DNA from: Gemmatimonadota bacterium
GTDB taxonomy: Bacteria; Gemmatimonadota; Gemmatimonadetes; Gemmatimonadales; GWC2-71-9
Length of the DNA stretch: 26,118 bases
NCBI GenBank assembly: GCA_003221985.1
Contig: QHUQ01000027.1
Coordinates: 1 to 26,118, forward strand
Direction of reading: 5' to 3'
How positions within the stretch are numbered: position 1 is the stretch's first letter; each line of letters begins with the position of its first letter. The notes beneath the pieces were generated by a model. The model saw only the letters and a program-made list of their open reading frames with translations. It did no database searches and was not told where the DNA came from. Below are positions 3-19,754 of this stretch, piece by piece. The translations under genes were made by a program, and so were the position numbers.

Positions 3-392
3 ATGGAAAGCGCTAACCGAATGGTCACGCCGACGCGGTTGCAGGTGAAGGGTTGGGCTCGCGTCGGTCCGGCGGGCGCGCACACGCTGCGGCGTGGCGC
101 ATGGTATCCCGTCGTTCGCATCTCCTCGAGCAACATCGTCGTCCTCGACGTCGACCGGCACAACGTGCCGGTCGACCGTCGCTTCCTCGAGATCCGTTAT
201 CATCCGCCGGAGCGGTGGACGATCGTCCGCTGTGAGCCGCGCGTCATCGAACGGCTCGGTCGTATCTTCCCGCTGACGTACGCGGTGTGTCCGGCATGCC
301 GGCACCGCCAGGGGATCGAGGCGCGGACGAACGAGATGACATGCGACCGCTGTCATAAGTCGGCGGCGATGGCATGGGACGAGCTCTCGTAG
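3..392 (+). CDS. Small C-terminal zinc-ribbon protein (paralog A)
   Basis: A 129-residue protein of unknown function. The N-terminal part contains a WAR segment and LRRGAWYPVV (about residues 29-38), and PPERWTIV lies near residue 68. The C-terminus carries two Cys pairs, CPAC (about 97-100) and CDRC (about 114-117), a typical zinc-ribbon spacing. The same blocks recur in the gene at 1085-1456, so the two are paralogs. The ATG at 3 lies on the window edge; a second ATG at 21 (MVTPTRLQ) would also work and upstream context is missing. A strong terminator follows at 434-468, so this is the last gene of its transcript. The metal-binding call rests on the Cys spacing. No enzymatic motif is visible, and a role in nucleic-acid or protein binding would be a guess. 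Confidence 0.7.
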   Translation: MESANRMVTPTRLQVKGWARVGPAGAHTLRRGAWYPVVRISSSNIVVLDVDRHNVPVDRRFLEIRYHPPERWTIVRCEPRVIERLGRIFPLTYAVCPACRHRQGIEARTNEMTCDRCHKSAAMAWDELS

Positions 393-6121: not shown

Positions 6122-6954
6122 ATCGTGAAGGCGGCTGGCACCGCACGGTCACCGGTGTCGTCCGGCGCACTCTCGAGGCCGCCTACGAAGACAACATCCC
6201 GTTTCTCGCCAGCGCCGTCGCGTTCGACATTCTGCTCACGGCCATCCCCTTCGTCGGGCTCGTCCTGGCCGTCGTCGGCTACCTCGCCCAATATCAGCTC
6301 GCCATTCACCAGCTCAACGTCCACGAGCTGCTGGAACGCTTCCTCCCCGAGTCGAGCGGCGGGGAGACCGGTCAGTTCGGCTTCATCGAGCGCGCGCTCG
6401 GCGACCTGGTCGCGCGGCGCGGCCACCTCACACTCCTCGCCGCGCCCCTGTTCCTGTGGTTCTCGACTCGTATGTTCGGAGGACTGCGCGCGGCATTGAA
6501 CGAGGTGTTCGACACCGAGGAGAACCGATCCTGGCCAAGAGCCAAGCTGGTCGATATCGCGATGGTCTTTGTGGCCGGAACCCTGTTCGTAGGGATCGCC
6601 TTCGCGTCCACGACCCGCGGCATCTGGTCGCAGCTGGCCTCGCTCCTGTTCAGCACCTCGCTGTTCTACGTGATCTTCAAGTACCTGCCGAGCCGGCGGA
6701 TCTACTGGCGGACGGGCGTGGTCGCATCGCTGTTCTGCGCGGTGGCGTTCGAAATCGCCAAGCGGCTCTACGCGCTATATGTGGCGCGCTTCGTGACCTT
6801 CGACCGCGTGGCATCGGACGCGAACCTGATCGGTTTCCTGCTGTTCGTTCTGTGGATCTACTACACGTCCTACGTGTTCTTGCTGGGCGGCGAAGTGGCG
6901 GAGACGTACGACCTGATGCGCATGCGGCGCCTCCAACGCGTGCAGCTCGGATGA
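6118..6954 (+). CDS. YihY/UPF0761 family membrane protein
   Basis: A 278-residue inner-membrane protein with about six hydrophobic segments, for example near 30-60 (FDILLTAIPFVGLVLAVVGYL), 100-120 (LTLLAAPLFLWFSTRMFGGL), 140-165 and the C-terminal NLIGFLLFVLWIYYTSYVFLLGGEVAE. The motifs FSTRMFGGLRAALNEVFDTEE and FLLGGEV near the end are typical of the YihY family, once mislabelled ribonuclease BN. Its biochemical role is unknown; some members have been proposed as transporters. The start is a GTG overlapping the YtxH stop, and the end overlaps the threonine aldolase start by ATGA. Confidence 0.9.
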   Translation: MNREGGWHRTVTGVVRRTLEAAYEDNIPFLASAVAFDILLTAIPFVGLVLAVVGYLAQYQLAIHQLNVHELLERFLPESSGGETGQFGFIERALGDLVARRGHLTLLAAPLFLWFSTRMFGGLRAALNEVFDTEENRSWPRAKLVDIAMVFVAGTLFVGIAFASTTRGIWSQLASLLFSTSLFYVIFKYLPSRRIYWRTGVVASLFCAVAFEIAKRLYALYVARFVTFDRVASDANLIGFLLFVLWIYYTSYVFLLGGEVAETYDLMRMRRLQRVQLG

Positions 6955-7982
6955 CATCGCCACCGATCGATCTCCGCTCCGATACCGTCACCCGGCCGTC
7001 GCCCGCCATGCGGCGCGCCATGGCGGACGCGGAGGTCGGCGACGACGTCCTCGACGGCGATCCGACGACCCGCCGACTCGAGGAGCGGGTCGCCGACCTG
7101 CTCGGCACCGAGGACGCGCTCTTCTTCCCGTCGGGCACCCAGGCAAATCAGACCGGCATCGCGCTGGTGACGGAGCCGGGCACGGAGCTCCTGCTCGAAG
7201 CGAACGCGCATCTCGTGCACTCCGAGGTCGCTGGCGTCGCCGCGCTGTCGGGCGTCCAGATCCGTCCGATCACGACACCCGATGGCCTCCTGACGCCCGA
7301 GCTGCTGCGCGGCGTGATACGCGCGCCGTCACCGCACGTGCCGCGCGCCACCGCACTGGCGATCGAGAACACGCACAATACGGCAGGCGGCCGCGTGCTG
7401 AACGCGGCGGCGGTCGATGCGCTGGTTCGCGTCGCGCGCGAGTCGCGAATGGCGGTCCACCTGGACGGCGCGCGCCTGTGGAACGCCGCGGTTGCCATGG
7501 GCGTGCCGCCCGCGCGCCTGACGCTGGGCGCCGATACCGTGATGGTGAGCATCTCGAAGGGGCTCGGCTGTCCCGTCGGATCGTGTCTCGGATTCAAGAA
7601 GTTGATGCGGGCGCGGGCGTGGGAGATTCGCAAGCGCCTCGGCGGCGGCATGCGCCAATCGGGCATTCTTGCGGCCGCGGGATTGTTCGCGCTCGATCAA
7701 AACTTGTCGCGGATCGGTGAGGACCACGCGAACGCCCGCCGTTTTGCGGAATTGCTTTCCGGCAGTCCGGCCGTCCGACCGACCGTCCCCGAGACGAACA
7801 TCGTGATGGTCGACCTGCTGCGCGAGCGCGATACGCCAGAAACGGTTGCGACGCGCCTTGCGACGGCCGGTGTGCGCCTCGCGCCGTGGGGGCCGCGGCG
7901 GCTCCGTGCCGTCACGCATCTCGACGTCGGACGCGAGGACGTGGAACGCGCGGCGCGAATCATCGTGGAGACGCTGGCGTGA
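6951..7982 (+). CDS. Low-specificity threonine aldolase
   Basis: A 343-residue PLP-dependent enzyme that cleaves threonine/allo-threonine to glycine and acetaldehyde. The N-terminus IDLRSDTVTRPSPAMRRAM is diagnostic, followed by GDDVLDGDPTT, FFPSGTQANQ (58-67), the ENTHNTAGG active-site stretch (139-147), HLDGARLWNAA (170-180) and the PLP lysine K203 in SISKGLGCPVGS. Length matches the family. The ATG at 6951 overlaps the preceding TGA, and the 3' end overlaps the next gene's GTG. It is cytoplasmic. Specificity (L versus L-allo) cannot be told. Confidence 0.95.
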   Translation: MTSPPIDLRSDTVTRPSPAMRRAMADAEVGDDVLDGDPTTRRLEERVADLLGTEDALFFPSGTQANQTGIALVTEPGTELLLEANAHLVHSEVAGVAALSGVQIRPITTPDGLLTPELLRGVIRAPSPHVPRATALAIENTHNTAGGRVLNAAAVDALVRVARESRMAVHLDGARLWNAAVAMGVPPARLTLGADTVMVSISKGLGCPVGSCLGFKKLMRARAWEIRKRLGGGMRQSGILAAAGLFALDQNLSRIGEDHANARRFAELLSGSPAVRPTVPETNIVMVDLLRERDTPETVATRLATAGVRLAPWGPRRLRAVTHLDVGREDVERAARIIVETLA

Positions 7983-9778
7983 GCGCGCGCCCGGAGCCCC
8001 GCTCGCAGGCGATGCCGATGGAACGGGCGATCTTGTGGAACCCGCCCGCCGCGCCGGGCACGACCGCCCCGGGGCGCCCGTCGAGCCGCTCGCCCTATCC
8101 GATTTTTTTCCAGCAGGAAGCCGTCATCGCCCTCCAGGAGCATCTCAAGAGCTCGCCGACGCAGGCGATCTTCGGCTTTCTCATCGGTGACCTGTACCGC
8201 GATCCGGAAACGGGCGTGCTGTACACCGTGATCGACAAGACGCTGAAGCTGAGCCAGGCGATCTACGGCGATAAGACGGAAGTCGTCGTGTCCCGGTTGT
8301 GGGATCGCATGCAGGAGCAGCTGGCGAAAGCCTCCGCGTCGTTGCTCGGCTGGTACCACAGCCACCCGGGGCAGGGCGGCTTCCTCACCACGCACGACGT
8401 CGAGACGCACGAGAAGTTCTTCACCGATCCGTGGCACGTGGCGATTCTCGTGGCAGCGGAGGCCGGCGGCCTCACGGGACGGTTCTTTCGCACGACGCAG
8501 AGTGCCGACTGGCACAAGACGCCGCTGCCATTTTACGAGCTGCTCCAGCCCGACTCGATCAAGCCGGACGGGAAGAAGCGTTCGTTTATTACGTGGCGGA
8601 ACTACAAGGCATACGGGCCGACGCTGACCGGGCCCAAACCGCCAAAGCCGGCACCCGCTCCAAAGCCGGAACCAGCGCCGCCACCCAAGGCGGAGGAGCC
8701 GGAAGAAGAGGAAGCCGAAGTCGAGGAGACGCAGGAGACGCAGGAGACCGCGCCGGCGCCGGCCCCCGAAAAAGGATTTCGCATCATGCGCTCGAGTGCG
8801 GACGACATTCCCGTCATCCGCACCAGCGCGGACGATGAGCCGGCGGCGCCTCCCCGGCCGGAACCACCGCCGCCACCGGCGCCCCCTCCCCCGCCTAAGA
8901 GCGCCGCGAAGACGCGGCCGGCGGCGCCGGTGTTCGTGCCCGACGAGCCTCCCCCTCTCCCTCCGAAGCCTCCACCAGCGCCGCCGCCGCCAGTGCGGAA
9001 GCCGATTGATGACATTCCCTGGACGGTGACACCGGAGTCGGTGGCGTCGGTGCCGCCCCCCCTGCTGGCGCCGGCGCCGCGGCGCACGCCGACCCACACG
9101 TTCCGGCTGCTCGAGCAGGATGAGGAGAAGAAAAAGCCCACGACCAAGGTGCGCCGCCGCAAACGCCGCGGACCCTGGCTCCGGCGGTTCGGGATGCTGC
9201 TGCTATTGGCGGGCGTGGGAGCGGGCGCGTATTGGTACGTCGCGCACCGCAATCCCCGCGTGCCGCCGCCGTGGGCGGGGTTGCTCGACAAGGCGAAGCA
9301 GTTGGTGTCGCGCGTGACGCAGAAGACCCCAGCGCCGCCGGCGCCGGGTCCGCGTCGTCCGTCTCGTACAACCGCGAGCGCACCCCCTGCCGCGACCTCC
9401 CCTATCGCCGCGCCGCCGCCGGCGCCGCCGCCCGCGCCGCCGCCGGCGCCGCCACCCCAGCCGCGCCCGGCACCGCCTCCGGCCCCACAGCCGGTCGTAT
9501 CGCCCTTCGCGCGGTTCGACCGCCTGAGCGACTCGTTGACACGGGCGGTGCGCAATTTCCAGGATCGGGCGCGCCTCTTCGCGAGTGGTCAGGTGGACTG
9601 CGCCGGACTCGCCACCGGCCTCGTGTCGGTCGAAAACCTGTGGATCAGGTATAGCACGGAGCGACGGGCGCGCGTGGCGGCGTTCGATCAGCGGCGGGCG
9701 GTGCAGGACCAGGCGCTGTACTCTGCGGTGGACTCGGTTTCGCGACGCTTCGACAACTCGGGGTGCCCGCGGCCGTGA
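7979..9778 (+). CDS. JAMM/MPN-domain protein with proline-rich linkers and one membrane anchor
   Basis: A 599-residue protein. An N-terminal MPN domain (about 40-190) carries HSHP (127-130) and a downstream T137-T-H-D140, that is, the JAMM zinc ligands H127, H129 and D140 with Ser replaced by Thr. The usual catalytic Glu, three residues before the Gly of GFLIG, is Ala63. A 200-residue Pro/Glu-rich linker follows (about 212-375), containing the reiterated short motif S-A-D-D-I-P. Then come a basic stop (RRRKRR, 392-397), one membrane helix (404-420), a second Pro/Ala-rich stretch (about 450-507) and a helical C-terminal domain with two Cys (541, 596). Charge bias puts the MPN domain in the cytoplasm and the C-terminus outside. 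The GTG start overlaps the previous stop. JAMM proteins cleave isopeptide or peptide bonds, but the missing Glu makes activity uncertain. No E1/E2 or ubiquitin-like gene is nearby. Confidence 0.8.
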   Translation: MSARPEPRSQAMPMERAILWNPPAAPGTTAPGRPSSRSPYPIFFQQEAVIALQEHLKSSPTQAIFGFLIGDLYRDPETGVLYTVIDKTLKLSQAIYGDKTEVVVSRLWDRMQEQLAKASASLLGWYHSHPGQGGFLTTHDVETHEKFFTDPWHVAILVAAEAGGLTGRFFRTTQSADWHKTPLPFYELLQPDSIKPDGKKRSFITWRNYKAYGPTLTGPKPPKPAPAPKPEPAPPPKAEEPEEEEAEVEETQETQETAPAPAPEKGFRIMRSSADDIPVIRTSADDEPAAPPRPEPPPPPAPPPPPKSAAKTRPAAPVFVPDEPPPLPPKPPPAPPPPVRKPIDDIPWTVTPESVASVPPPLLAPAPRRTPTHTFRLLEQDEEKKKPTTKVRRRKRRGPWLRRFGMLLLLAGVGAGAYWYVAHRNPRVPPPWAGLLDKAKQLVSRVTQKTPAPPAPGPRRPSRTTASAPPAATSPIAAPPPAPPPAPPPAPPPQPRPAPPPAPQPVVSPFARFDRLSDSLTRAVRNFQDRARLFASGQVDCAGLATGLVSVENLWIRYSTERRARVAAFDQRRAVQDQALYSAVDSVSRRFDNSGCPRP

Positions 9779-10716
9779 GCGCCTTGCTCGTCTTGCTGCT
9801 CGCGATGCAGGCGGGGGGGGGGCGGGGGGAGCGGGGGGGGCCGGCGCCGCTCCGCAAGAGCGATCTGGTGCGCCTGCTTTCCGGCTCGGTGATGGCGCCC
9901 GCGGAGCTCAGACAGCTCGTTCGACGGAACTGCCTGACGTTCGACCCCACCGACCGCGATCGCCACGATTTCAGGCTGCTGGGTGCGGATGCGGCGCTGC
10001 TGGCGGCAGTCGATGATTGCGCACGCCGTTCGGCGACGCGGCCGGCACCTCGCCAACCTCCACCACCTCCACGCTCCCCCCCACCCTCCTCCATCGCCTC
10101 CGCCACGCGTTCGGGCTTCCTGTCAGGTGGCGGCCAGCGCGGCTCTGCGGGTGGCCAGTTGCCGCGCGCGCTCGTGTTTGAAGCGCGCGACTCGGCGGGC
10201 ACACCGCTGTCGCGTCAGGCCGTCGCGTTCACGGGGATCAATGCGCGCATCGAGCCGGCTGCCGCGCTGACCGATGCGGCAGGACAGGCTCGCGTCGGCG
10301 TGACGTTAGGCGAGCGTGCCGGCCTGGCGACCGTCATCGCCTCGATCGGCGTGATCGAGAAGCAAGTTGCCTTCAACGTGGCGGCGGGAGCAGCGGCGCA
10401 GCTCGTCGTGCTGTGTGGCCAGGCCAGCGTCGCCACCCGATTCGCGATCCGCCCCGACTCGAGTGCCACGTTGCGCGTGTCCGCGCAGGATGGCTTTGCC
10501 AATGCGACACCGCTGCTGGGACTGCGCGCGGCCGTCGCCGACGCGCGCATCTTCCGGGTGGTCCGCGTGGCGCAGGACAGCGTCTCTGGGGTCGTGGTGC
10601 TCAAGCCCGATCAGCCCGGGACCACGAGCCTCGCCGTGATCGCGAACGGAATGCGCCAATATCTTACGGTAACTGTCCCGCCTCGCGCAGCTCCCGGAAA
10701 GACCGATTGTCCGTAA
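9775..10716 (+). CDS. Secreted protein with N-terminal unknown domain and Ig-like domain
   Basis: About 313 residues. The N-terminus SALLVLLLAMQAGG is a signal peptide. A helical domain follows (about 26-83: LRKSDLVRLLSGSVMAPAE through FRLLGADAALLAAVDDCARR, with two Cys), then a Pro-rich hinge and a beta-rich region (about 130-215) in the style of bacterial Ig-like (invasin/Big) domains: VFEARDSAGTPLSRQAVAF, then LTDAAGQARVGVTLGERAG. A second beta-rich segment ends the protein. I prefer the GTG at 9775, which overlaps the JAMM gene's TGA by four bases like its neighbours; a GTG at 9763 is also possible. Co-translation with the JAMM protein suggests a shared envelope role, perhaps contact with its outside domain (inference). 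Confidence 0.65.
   Translation: MSALLVLLLAMQAGGGRGERGGPAPLRKSDLVRLLSGSVMAPAELRQLVRRNCLTFDPTDRDRHDFRLLGADAALLAAVDDCARRSATRPAPRQPPPPPRSPPPSSIASATRSGFLSGGGQRGSAGGQLPRALVFEARDSAGTPLSRQAVAFTGINARIEPAAALTDAAGQARVGVTLGERAGLATVIASIGVIEKQVAFNVAAGAAAQLVVLCGQASVATRFAIRPDSSATLRVSAQDGFANATPLLGLRAAVADARIFRVVRVAQDSVSGVVVLKPDQPGTTSLAVIANGMRQYLTVTVPPRAAPGKTDCP
9813..9840 (+). repeat. G10-G6-G8 tract at the signal-peptide junction
   Basis: Runs of ten, six and eight G, separated by single C or AGC, encode GGGRGERGG just after the signal peptide of the secreted Ig-like protein. The reading frame is intact as given; a one-base slip in the G10 would abolish the protein. Confidence 0.8.
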
Positions 10717-10893: not shown

Positions 10894-10922
10894 AAGCTAC
10901 CTAGGTTAGATTCCCTTCTCAA
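10894..10922 (-). promoter_or_regulatory. Predicted promoter of the SRP RNA gene
   Basis: On the - strand, TTGAGA (10922-10917) and TAGCTT (10899-10894) are 17 bp apart, and six bases later the RNA's first G (10887) would be the start point. The -35 touches the A of the dnaX ATG at 10922. On the + strand the same segment holds TAGATT (10907-10912), a possible -10 for dnaX with an almost leaderless transcript. Confidence 0.45.
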
Positions 10923-12541
10923 TGATTGCCCTCGCACGCAAGTACCGCCCCAAGCAATTCTCCGATCTCATCGCCCAGGACCACGTGGCCGCCGCGCTCC
11001 GTGGAGCGGTGGCGCAGGGTCGCGTGGCGCATGGCTACCTCTTTGCCGGACCCCGTGGCGTCGGGAAAACGACCGCCGCCCGTATCCTCGCGATGGCGCT
11101 GAATTGCGAGCGCCGCACGTCGGCGGGGGCAGGGGAGCCGTGCGGCGAATGCGATCCGTGCCGGCGCATCTGGACCGGAGCCGCCAATCTGGACGTGGTC
11201 GAGCTCGACGCCGCCTCCAACCGGGGCGTGGACGACGCGCGCGACCTGCGCGAGCGGGCCATGTACGCCGCGAGCACCGAGGCGGGATCCAAGGTCTATA
11301 TCGTCGACGAAGCCCACATGCTCACCCGCGAGGCGTGGAACGCGCTGCTGAAAATTCTCGAGGAGCCACCCGCCCGGGTCGTGTTCGTCTTCGCCACGAC
11401 CGAGCCGCAAAAGATCGCCAACACCGCCGCGCCGATCCTGTCGCGGCTGCAGCGCTTCGACTTCCGGCGCATCGGCCCGCACGCGATCGTCGCCCGCCTC
11501 AAGGAGGTCGCCGAAGCTGAACAGCTGTCGGTCGAGGACGACGCCCTGCATCTCATCGCGAAGAGCGCCAACGGCGGGATGCGCGACGCGCTCTCGCTCC
11601 TCGACCAGGTGCTCTCGTTCGGTGAAGGGCCGGTCGCCGCCGGTCGGGTGCGCGAGGTCCTGGGACTGATCCCCGACGAGCTCTACGGCGAGATGCTCCG
11701 GACCATCGTGGGACGGGATCCTGCCGGGGTCTTCCCACTCGTCGAGCGGCTGCTCGAGGGTGGTGCGGACCTCGGCGAGTTCGTCAACGGCGCCGCCGAG
11801 ACATTGCGCGCCTTGCTCCTCGTCGGCGTCGGCGGTCAGCCGGAAGGGATGACGGAAGGCCTGTTGGCCGTCGTGCGCGAGTACGCGCCGCAGCTCCCGC
11901 CCGGCGACATCGTCCGCCTGCTCACGATTCTGAGCGAGTCCGAAGAGCGTCTGAGCCGCAGTGCCAACACTCGCATGCTCGTCGAAGTCTTGTTGCTGCG
12001 ATGGGCGATGCTCGACCGAACCGTCGAGCTTTCCGAAGTGATCGAAGCGCTGGGGAAGGGGGACCTGGGACGGGAGACGGGTACTACCGGACCCGCATCA
12101 GTTCCTGCGCCAGCGGTACCCGTCCCCCCTCCCTCTTCCCCCGTCCCCGGTCAGAAGTTGGAACCCACCCTCGACAACGTTCGGTCGATTTGGGCACACG
12201 TGATCAGCGACGCCCGCGCGAAGTCGCCGATGCTCGGCAGCCTGCTGGCGGAAGCGGACGTCGTGGGCGTCGACGGCCGCGTCGTGACCCTCCGTCCCGG
12301 CCATGCAATCCATGCCGAGGGACTCGAGCGGCAGCGCGATGCGATCGCGCAGAGTCTGGGGCGTTATGTGAGTGAGGCACCGCGCGTGAAGGTTGTCGCA
12401 GGCAGTGCGACACCCCCCACCGCGCCCCCTGGGCGCATCACCGAACAGGGGGCCAACGCGGAACGCCTCAAGAGTCTGCGCGCCAAGGATCCCACCCTGA
12501 GCGCGGCTGTGGACGCATTAGATTTGGAGCTGCTCGAATAG
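10922..12541 (+). CDS. dnaX: DNA polymerase III subunit tau/gamma
   Basis: A 539-residue AAA+ clamp-loader ATPase that opens and places the sliding clamp. It has LARKYRPKQFSDLIAQ at the start, Walker A GPRGVGKT (43-50), the four-Cys zinc module (C62, C74, C77, C80), Walker B VDEAH (128-132), and the sensor-1 region FVFATTEPQKI. A Pro-rich hinge near residues 395-415 precedes the tau-specific C-terminal domain (about 420-539). I see no slippery A-tract that would yield a separate gamma. The start has no Shine-Dalgarno, and the ATG follows a -10-like TAGATT by nine bases. It heads the dnaX-ybaB-recR recombination/replication cluster. Confidence 0.96.
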   Translation: MIALARKYRPKQFSDLIAQDHVAAALRGAVAQGRVAHGYLFAGPRGVGKTTAARILAMALNCERRTSAGAGEPCGECDPCRRIWTGAANLDVVELDAASNRGVDDARDLRERAMYAASTEAGSKVYIVDEAHMLTREAWNALLKILEEPPARVVFVFATTEPQKIANTAAPILSRLQRFDFRRIGPHAIVARLKEVAEAEQLSVEDDALHLIAKSANGGMRDALSLLDQVLSFGEGPVAAGRVREVLGLIPDELYGEMLRTIVGRDPAGVFPLVERLLEGGADLGEFVNGAAETLRALLLVGVGGQPEGMTEGLLAVVREYAPQLPPGDIVRLLTILSESEERLSRSANTRMLVEVLLLRWAMLDRTVELSEVIEALGKGDLGRETGTTGPASVPAPAVPVPPPSSPVPGQKLEPTLDNVRSIWAHVISDARAKSPMLGSLLAEADVVGVDGRVVTLRPGHAIHAEGLERQRDAIAQSLGRYVSEAPRVKVVAGSATPPTAPPGRITEQGANAERLKSLRAKDPTLSAAVDALDLELLE

Positions 12542-19054: not shown

Positions 19055-19153
19055 GCGAGACCATTGTCGAGCAGGGGGCGCGGAGGACGAACGAGCGTAA
19101 CCGGTGCGGAATACGAGCGCGAGGCAGAGCAGCGTCGGGAATCGCGCGGACAC
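19001..19153 (-). pseudogene. GH27 alpha-galactosidase 5' remnant
   Basis: Read on the - strand, three pieces match in order the beginning of a GH27 alpha-galactosidase. A signal-peptide-like start (GTG at 19153, SARFPTLLCLALVF) is followed, after a frame change in a C-run, by LLDNGLAYTP. Then, with the expected MGWNSWN block and about 30 residues missing, comes DAGYQYVVIDDCW (19004-19042), the highly conserved strand that precedes the catalytic region. Immediately after the Trp the sequence becomes antisense dnaJ. It is therefore a broken, frameshifted, internally deleted gene start. The remaining stretch to 19319 shows no gene I can support. Confidence 0.5.
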
Positions 19154-19319
19154 AATGGGCCTCTCGGGGGGTAGGGAGTGCCGTGGCAAGCCGCATGCCG
19201 GTTCGCCCCGCCGTTGCCCTGGCGCAGCGGGTGCCGTCCGAGTGCAGCACCTCGGGGCCGCTCGCCGTTCCCTTCATTCCGCAACCGGCGGGCACGCGCC
19301 TTGCCTACCGAAGGCTCGA

Positions 19320-19754
19320 ATGAAGCGCGACGTCCGCTACCTCGTCGTCGCCGGCGCGATCGCCTGCGGGGGGGGGCCCGCGCCTCCGGGGCAATCCGCG
19401 CCTGGGACCGCGGTCACCACGGTCGTCCCGTCTGAAACGGATGCGCGCGTGACGCGGGTGGAGGAGATGCTGCGCGGCGTGCCGGGTCTCGAAGTGACCC
19501 GGTTGGCGGACGGGAACTATCGGCTCCGGATCCGTGGGCAACGCAGCATCCGGGGGAATCCAACGGACGACAATCCCCTCGTCGTGATCGACGGTATCCC
19601 CATTCCGAACGAATCCATGAGCAGTATGCTGGCGGATCTCTCGCCCGGCGACGTTGCGCGGATCGAAGTGCTGAAGGACGCGGCGCACACGGGCATGTAC
19701 GGATCACGCGGCGCCAACGGCGTGATCGTCATTACCACCAAACGAGCACGATAG
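19320..19754 (+). CDS. Lipoprotein consisting of a lone TonB-receptor plug domain
   Basis: A 144-residue protein. The N-terminus MKRDVRYLVVAGAIAC ends in a lipobox-like GAIAC, so Cys16 is probably lipidated; a G9 run encodes the glycines right after it. From about residue 40 it matches the plug of SusC/RagA-type receptors: VEEMLRGVPGLEVTRL, YRLRIRGQRSIRG, PLVVIDGIPI, LADLSPGDVARIEVLKDAAHTGMYGSRGANGVIVITTK. No beta-barrel follows; the gene simply stops. It may act as a free plug or an accessory of a receptor encoded elsewhere. The next gene, 11 bp downstream, encodes a small outer-membrane barrel. Confidence 0.85.
   Translation: MKRDVRYLVVAGAIACGGGPAPPGQSAPGTAVTTVVPSETDARVTRVEEMLRGVPGLEVTRLADGNYRLRIRGQRSIRGNPTDDNPLVVIDGIPIPNESMSSMLADLSPGDVARIEVLKDAAHTGMYGSRGANGVIVITTKRAR

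Follow-up and report, generated by a model that had tools for sequence, protein, structure and literature searches.

Here we describe a putative two-gene envelope cassette of Gemmatimonadota in which a membrane-anchored protein with an MPN (JAMM-type) domain keeps all three zinc ligands of the active site and has alanine in place of the catalytic glutamate. We propose that this domain is a non-hydrolytic cytoplasmic binding or assembly module of a trans-envelope protein pair and not an ordinary protease, a reading to which we assign a probability of about 0.5. The gene lies in a stretch of 26,118 nucleotides, referred to below as the window, and its features are summarized in Table 1. A first-pass annotation of the same DNA had already reported the fold, the zinc ligands, the missing glutamate and the membrane topology; it omitted the adjoining partner gene, the family-wide architecture, and the paralogs that keep the glutamate or lose the zinc ligands.

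Table 1. Features of the MPN gene and its immediate neighbours (window positions; residue counts are among the matches listed, except for the 20 proteins of the intact group, which were listed whole).
Feature	Position	Strand	Basis
Upstream neighbour, beta-eliminating-lyase-type PLP enzyme, no evident role	6945..7982	+	Pfam, neighbour comparison
Membrane-anchored MPN (pseudo-JAMM) protein	7979..9778	+	599 aa, GTG start
MPN domain, residues 36-216	8084..8626	+	Pfam JAB; AF2 model; structural matches
Ala63 codon, replaces catalytic Glu	8165..8167	+	Family profile aligned to Rpn11; Ala in 121/121
Asp98, in stretch aligned with Rpn11 Ins-1 region, candidate zinc cap (hypothesis)	8270..8272	+	Acid in 121/121 and 119/120 in Glu-less clades
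His127-Ser128-His129, zinc ligands	8357..8365	+	121/121
Asp140, zinc ligand	8396..8398	+	121/121
Glu142 (Asp140+2)	8402..8404	+	Acid in 241/241 Glu-less; Arg in 20/20 intact
Repeated SADDIP ... SADDEP motif, cytoplasmic linker	8795..8842	+	Motif in 105/121
Predicted membrane helix, residues 404-422, N side Arg/Lys-rich	9188..9244	+	Hydropathy
Predicted extracytoplasmic three-helix domain, Cys541 and Cys596	9500..9775	+	AF2; two Cys in 108/108; profile A4
Partner: hydrophobic N-terminus, two-Cys helical domain LRKSDLVRLL..., Big_1-like domain	9763..10716	+	Pfam below cut-off; neighbour conservation
Downstream neighbour, dnaX-like, no evident role	10922..12541	+	Pfam, neighbour comparison

Architecture and zinc site of the MPN protein

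Homologs were compared in three sets, comprising the window clade (the query plus 120 listed of 374 found, close relatives with 72-100% identity), a sister clade (120 listed of 277 found, close relatives with 68-98% identity) and a third, intact group of 20 proteins found from locus L111. In the 599-residue ORF, Pfam matched JAB/MPN over residues 52-147 (E 5.8e-9), and an AlphaFold2 model of residues 1-220 has the MPN fold (pLDDT 82.3, pTM 0.83), with BRCC36, Rpn11, archaeal Rpn11 and CSN5 among its highest structural matches. A long Pro-rich linker follows the MPN domain; hydropathy and charge predict one membrane helix with the N-terminus inside, and the outer helical domain was modelled by AlphaFold2 as three helices. 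Among proteins with complete C-termini, the last 100 residues hold exactly two Cys in 108/108 of the window clade and 96/97 of the sister clade, both among the matches listed, and in 16/16 of the intact group. The SADDIP-type linker motif, which the first-pass annotation had picked out in the single protein, is present in 105 of 121 window-clade proteins; an FLTA[AS]ED motif occurs in 86 of 120 sister-clade linkers (again among the matches listed) and a hydrophobic-Pro-acid motif in 6 of 7 MPN-less proteins, and all three are candidate docking sites. The architecture as described is virtually certain. MPN-domain dN/dS was 0.05-0.08 in three comparisons with no sign of gaps, and the RadC Pfam family was absent from matches at E <= 1, a search in which HMMER filters drop weak matches.

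An active JAMM (MPN+) metalloprotease combines the MPN fold with JAMM-spaced HxH ... D ligands and a catalytic Glu, and only the last of these is missing from the window protein, whose zinc-site spacing (HxHx7Tx2D) is otherwise complete. When the family profile is aligned to Rpn11, the invariant Ala63 falls on the Rpn11 Glu. Among the matches listed, position 63 is Ala in 121/121 window-clade and Gly in 120/120 sister-clade proteins, with Glu in 0/121 and 0/120; the former show no change at H127, H129 or D140 (121/121 for each), and in the latter the three corresponding ligands occur in 119, 120 and 120 proteins. Thr or Ser occupies position 137 in 121/121 window-clade proteins, also among the matches listed. 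The homolog alignment proposed in the first-pass annotation thereby bears out its reading of the site. The intact group has Glu (15), Asp (2) or a gap (3) at position 63 and all three ligands in 20/20, and the family therefore contains both kinds. Codon usage at position 63 was also compared: three different codons encode the sister-clade Gly across 12 loci, and a single codon encodes the window-clade Ala in 10/10 loci, which lends no support in the window clade to selection on Ala itself.

On sequence grounds, it looks as if the zinc site is maintained and its usual base gone, and the MPN domain very likely binds zinc. The Glu of AfJAMM keeps the zinc-bound water in place and has been proposed to act as acid-base catalyst, and a Glu-to-Ala change in Schizosaccharomyces pombe Csn5 disrupted deneddylation and left assembly with Csn1 unaffected (PMC300881). 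Loss of the Glu, together with retention of the ligands and of an Ins-1-like stretch, suggests binding without cleavage, and the domain probably does not hydrolyse peptide bonds.

Acidic residues at positions 98 and 142

Residues 91-104 are near-invariant and align with a region of Rpn11 that we take, from that alignment and the known location of the loop, to be Ins-1. Residue 98, within this stretch, is acidic in 121/121 window-clade and 119/120 sister-clade proteins among the matches listed, and mixed in the intact clade (n=20; Ser 10, Glu 6, Ala 2, Gly 1). Residue 142 is acidic in 241/241 proteins of the two Glu-less clades among the matches listed versus Arg in 20/20 of the intact clade, and residues 54 and 150 follow a pattern resembling those at 98 and 142. 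The same tendency appears in 55 distinct ligand-complete ORFs, where an acid is found at 142 in 0/12 with the normal acid and 32/43 without it, and at 98 in 4/12 and 40/43, respectively. Because these acids are fixed in the Glu-less but not the intact clade, both a capped zinc and a relocated base are conceivable: Asp98 may cap the zinc, or an acid at 98 or 142 may have taken over as base. The first-pass annotation had asked whether another conserved acid fills the site; such acids exist and may lie at the zinc site.

The strongest rival to our reading follows from the second option, namely that the protein is still a hydrolase, a membrane-tethered peptidase in which another acid, most likely Glu142 close to the Asp ligand or else Asp98, has replaced position 63 on strand beta-2 as the base. 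It draws on the counts above (for residue 98, an acid in 240 of 241 Glu-less proteins among the matches listed) and on the conserved Thr/Ser137, but those counts are clustered by phylogeny. In AMSH-type enzymes, moreover, the residue two past the Asp ligand coordinates a second zinc that lies outside the active site, and no JAMM is known to use such a base. For AMSH-LP, a non-catalytic zinc is described as stabilising Ins-2, in a passage that does not name its ligands (PMC9313428). We consider a relocated base unlikely.

For the alternative of a capped zinc, known JAMMs provide a model. Ins-1 helps to place the ubiquitin tail, and CSN5 is kept inactive by Ins-1 Glu104 on the zinc (PMC9313428); by analogy, Asp98 may be a zinc cap. 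CSN5 differs in retaining its catalytic Glu, which the window protein is without, and the equivalence of 98 to CSN5 104 is hypothetical.

The family and its partner gene across Gemmatimonadota

Profile searches covered one phylum, Gemmatimonadota, to which the protein matches carrying organism names, a minority of all matches, also belong. The window-type domain profile matched 51 of 395 possibly incomplete genomes, at least one of these matches (G203) being the ordinary-looking JAMM of L010, and Pfam JAB matched 74 of 395. After removal of copies, 89 ORFs could be classified. All ligands are present in 55, of which 12 (L010 included) also have Glu or Asp at the acid position and 43 do not. 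In 11 others the acid is retained but the ligand set is broken, in 19 both are gone, one has a gap at the ligands and three a gap at the acid, two of the latter with broken ligands. In a quick tree built from 85 of the 89 ORFs, the acid state changes at least 7 times, 3 of these changes being forced by well-supported branches. The active site is lost by more than one route in the Gemmatimonadota family. Many members keep the linker, single hydrophobic helix and C-terminal two-Cys domain, in a survey where some ORFs were cut by contig ends and some were without a detected helix. In L110:1666-5769 (-), with outer and MPN domain, and L151:2-3295 (+), with outer domain, the Pro-rich linker is swapped for approximately 900 or more residues that look coiled-coil-like by eye.

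Broken ligands in 32 of the 89 ORFs, many of which still keep the architecture, are what would be expected if the MPN domain were a structural remnant, a dimerisation scaffold in which any bound zinc is structural. A mere scaffold would not need the ligands or the Ins-1-like stretch, however, and their near-perfect retention in the window and sister clades makes this explanation quite improbable for these clades. At L100:3749-7942 (-) and L104:3669-8344 (-), neighbouring genes of the family encode one protein in which the JAMM motif is complete and another in which it is degraded (RxH ... E), an arrangement that resembles, in bacteria, MPN+/MPN- pairs like Rpn11-Rpn8. That the window protein is likewise a regulatory subunit, dimerising with an active MPN enzyme encoded elsewhere as Rpn8 does with Rpn11, is very doubtful given a single PF01398 match in each of eight possibly incomplete window-clade relatives (G001-G008), although Prok-JAB matches in 8/8 of them, weak and above cut-off in 1, make a second JAB protein possible there.

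The partner gene, whose start overlaps the 3' end of the MPN gene, encodes a protein predicted to be exported, with a signal-like N-terminus as judged by eye. Its Pfam matches are Big_1 (29.3 bits, under the cut-off of 34.9) and Invasin_D3, also below cut-off, with no match to an outer-membrane barrel of the kind that intimin/invasin-type adhesins have in the same protein; its helical domain has no Pfam match, and both Cys of that domain are invariant in 10 aligned partners. G runs near the gene start (window 9808-9848) are a possible slippage or assembly-error site.

Counting ORFs with at least 800 bases of downstream sequence, the partner helical domain follows 32/45 acid-less ORFs (24/30 that keep the ligands, 8/15 with ligands broken) versus 0/15 acid-bearing ORFs (L010 included) and 1/3 with a gap at the acid. 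It follows only 8 of 23 distinct ORFs that have the outer domain and no detected MPN domain. In the window clade the partner adjoins 6 of 8 genes, and in the close relatives L004 and L006 none was found beside the gene, also by tblastn. The association of acid loss with an adjoining partner is not independent of phylogeny: well-supported branches yield 2 independent pairs, for which a sign test gives p = 1. The cassette is tandemly duplicated in L070-L073. At L140-L146, seven short MPN-less proteins, each with a hydrophobic helix and a two-Cys domain, are followed by the same partner type, and these cassettes together with the MPN cassettes show that the outer domain pair recurs with or without the MPN head. 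On this gene-neighbourhood evidence the partner is quite likely to be functionally linked to the MPN protein. Paralogous partners carry additional Big_1 matches (L070, L099, L140), TPR repeats (L099, L106, L162) or a weak, sub-cut-off OMP barrel match (L078), and a partner-related helical domain is fused to TonB_C at L165:3169-4011 (+) and L168:3233-4147 (+).

The remaining surroundings offer no functional hint. Neighbours named by Pfam are aldolase-type, YtxH-like, BrkB, PLP enzyme, dnaX, ybaB, recR and roadblock genes, together with small GTPase, CDP-alcohol phosphatidyltransferase, cinA, hydrolase and grpE genes, and many keep the same order in relatives. Two small ORFs (window 3-392 and 1064-1456, +) cluster together by similarity, and relatives also have them around the minus-strand gene 467-1045. 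A TonB-receptor Plug domain (E 8.7e-17) was detected in a 216-aa ORF at window 19104-19754 (+), too short for a receptor barrel.

Related systems and proposed role

The closest known system by sequence is Rpn11/PSMD14, the proteasome-lid JAMM isopeptidase, which is the best match among solved structures and shares the MPN fold and zinc-ligand spacing but has a catalytic Glu where the window protein has Ala63; to our knowledge, Rpn11 has neither the membrane helix nor the outer domain. By structure, the best match to the MPN domain is BRCC36-KIAA0157, an MPN+/MPN- pair. MPN domains without activity can serve assembly, and MPN- domains such as those of KIAA0157 and Rpn8 are described as recognisable by missing zinc-coordinating residues (PMC4579573), whereas the window protein keeps its ligands and lacks the Glu. 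JAB proteins of bacterial ubiquitin-like operons, most of which adjoin E1-like and/or ubiquitin-like genes, likewise place a JAB/MPN domain in bacteria (PMC1779556). A Pfam scan of 18 window genes, a subset of the window ORFs, gave no match to E1-like, E2-like or ubiquitin-like families, as the first-pass annotation had stated; ThiF and ThiS matches occur in 8/8 relatives (G001-G008), away from the MPN gene. The partner and its relatives share Big_1-like domains with Big_1/invasin-type Ig-like proteins; the partner differs in its sub-cut-off Big_1 match, its lack of a barrel match and its unmatched helical domain.

In the role that we propose, the product of the MPN gene would sit in the inner membrane with its MPN domain in the cytoplasm and its C-terminal domain outside with the partner, and the outer helical domains of the two proteins would bind each other. 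The zinc-stabilised MPN domain would hold a ligand uncut, either the tail of a protein or, by way of Asp98, its own Ins-1 loop, and a ligand held inside could couple outer and inner events. We give such trans-envelope coupling roughly even odds. A more specific and decidedly tentative version is that the JAMM fold became a membrane-spanning sensor in which, after loss of the Glu, a fixed Asp98 caps the zinc to form a metal- or tail-gated switch coupled to the Ig-like partner. Of the three roles offered in the first-pass annotation, the receptor and the zinc-only binding protein are the best fits and could be one and the same thing; a regulated protease is a less favoured reading.

No description of such a family appeared among the matches listed in open-licence PMC text. 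Two of its clades retain the zinc site and lose only the base, within a membrane-spanning protein whose neighbouring gene is conserved. Since the family also holds complete-motif proteins and intact/degraded pairs, a path from enzyme to receptor may be traceable within one phylum. If our reading is true, a bacterial JAMM fold would serve trans-envelope binding or signalling and not the removal of ubiquitin-like tags, and the family would supply natural intermediates between an enzyme and a binding protein.
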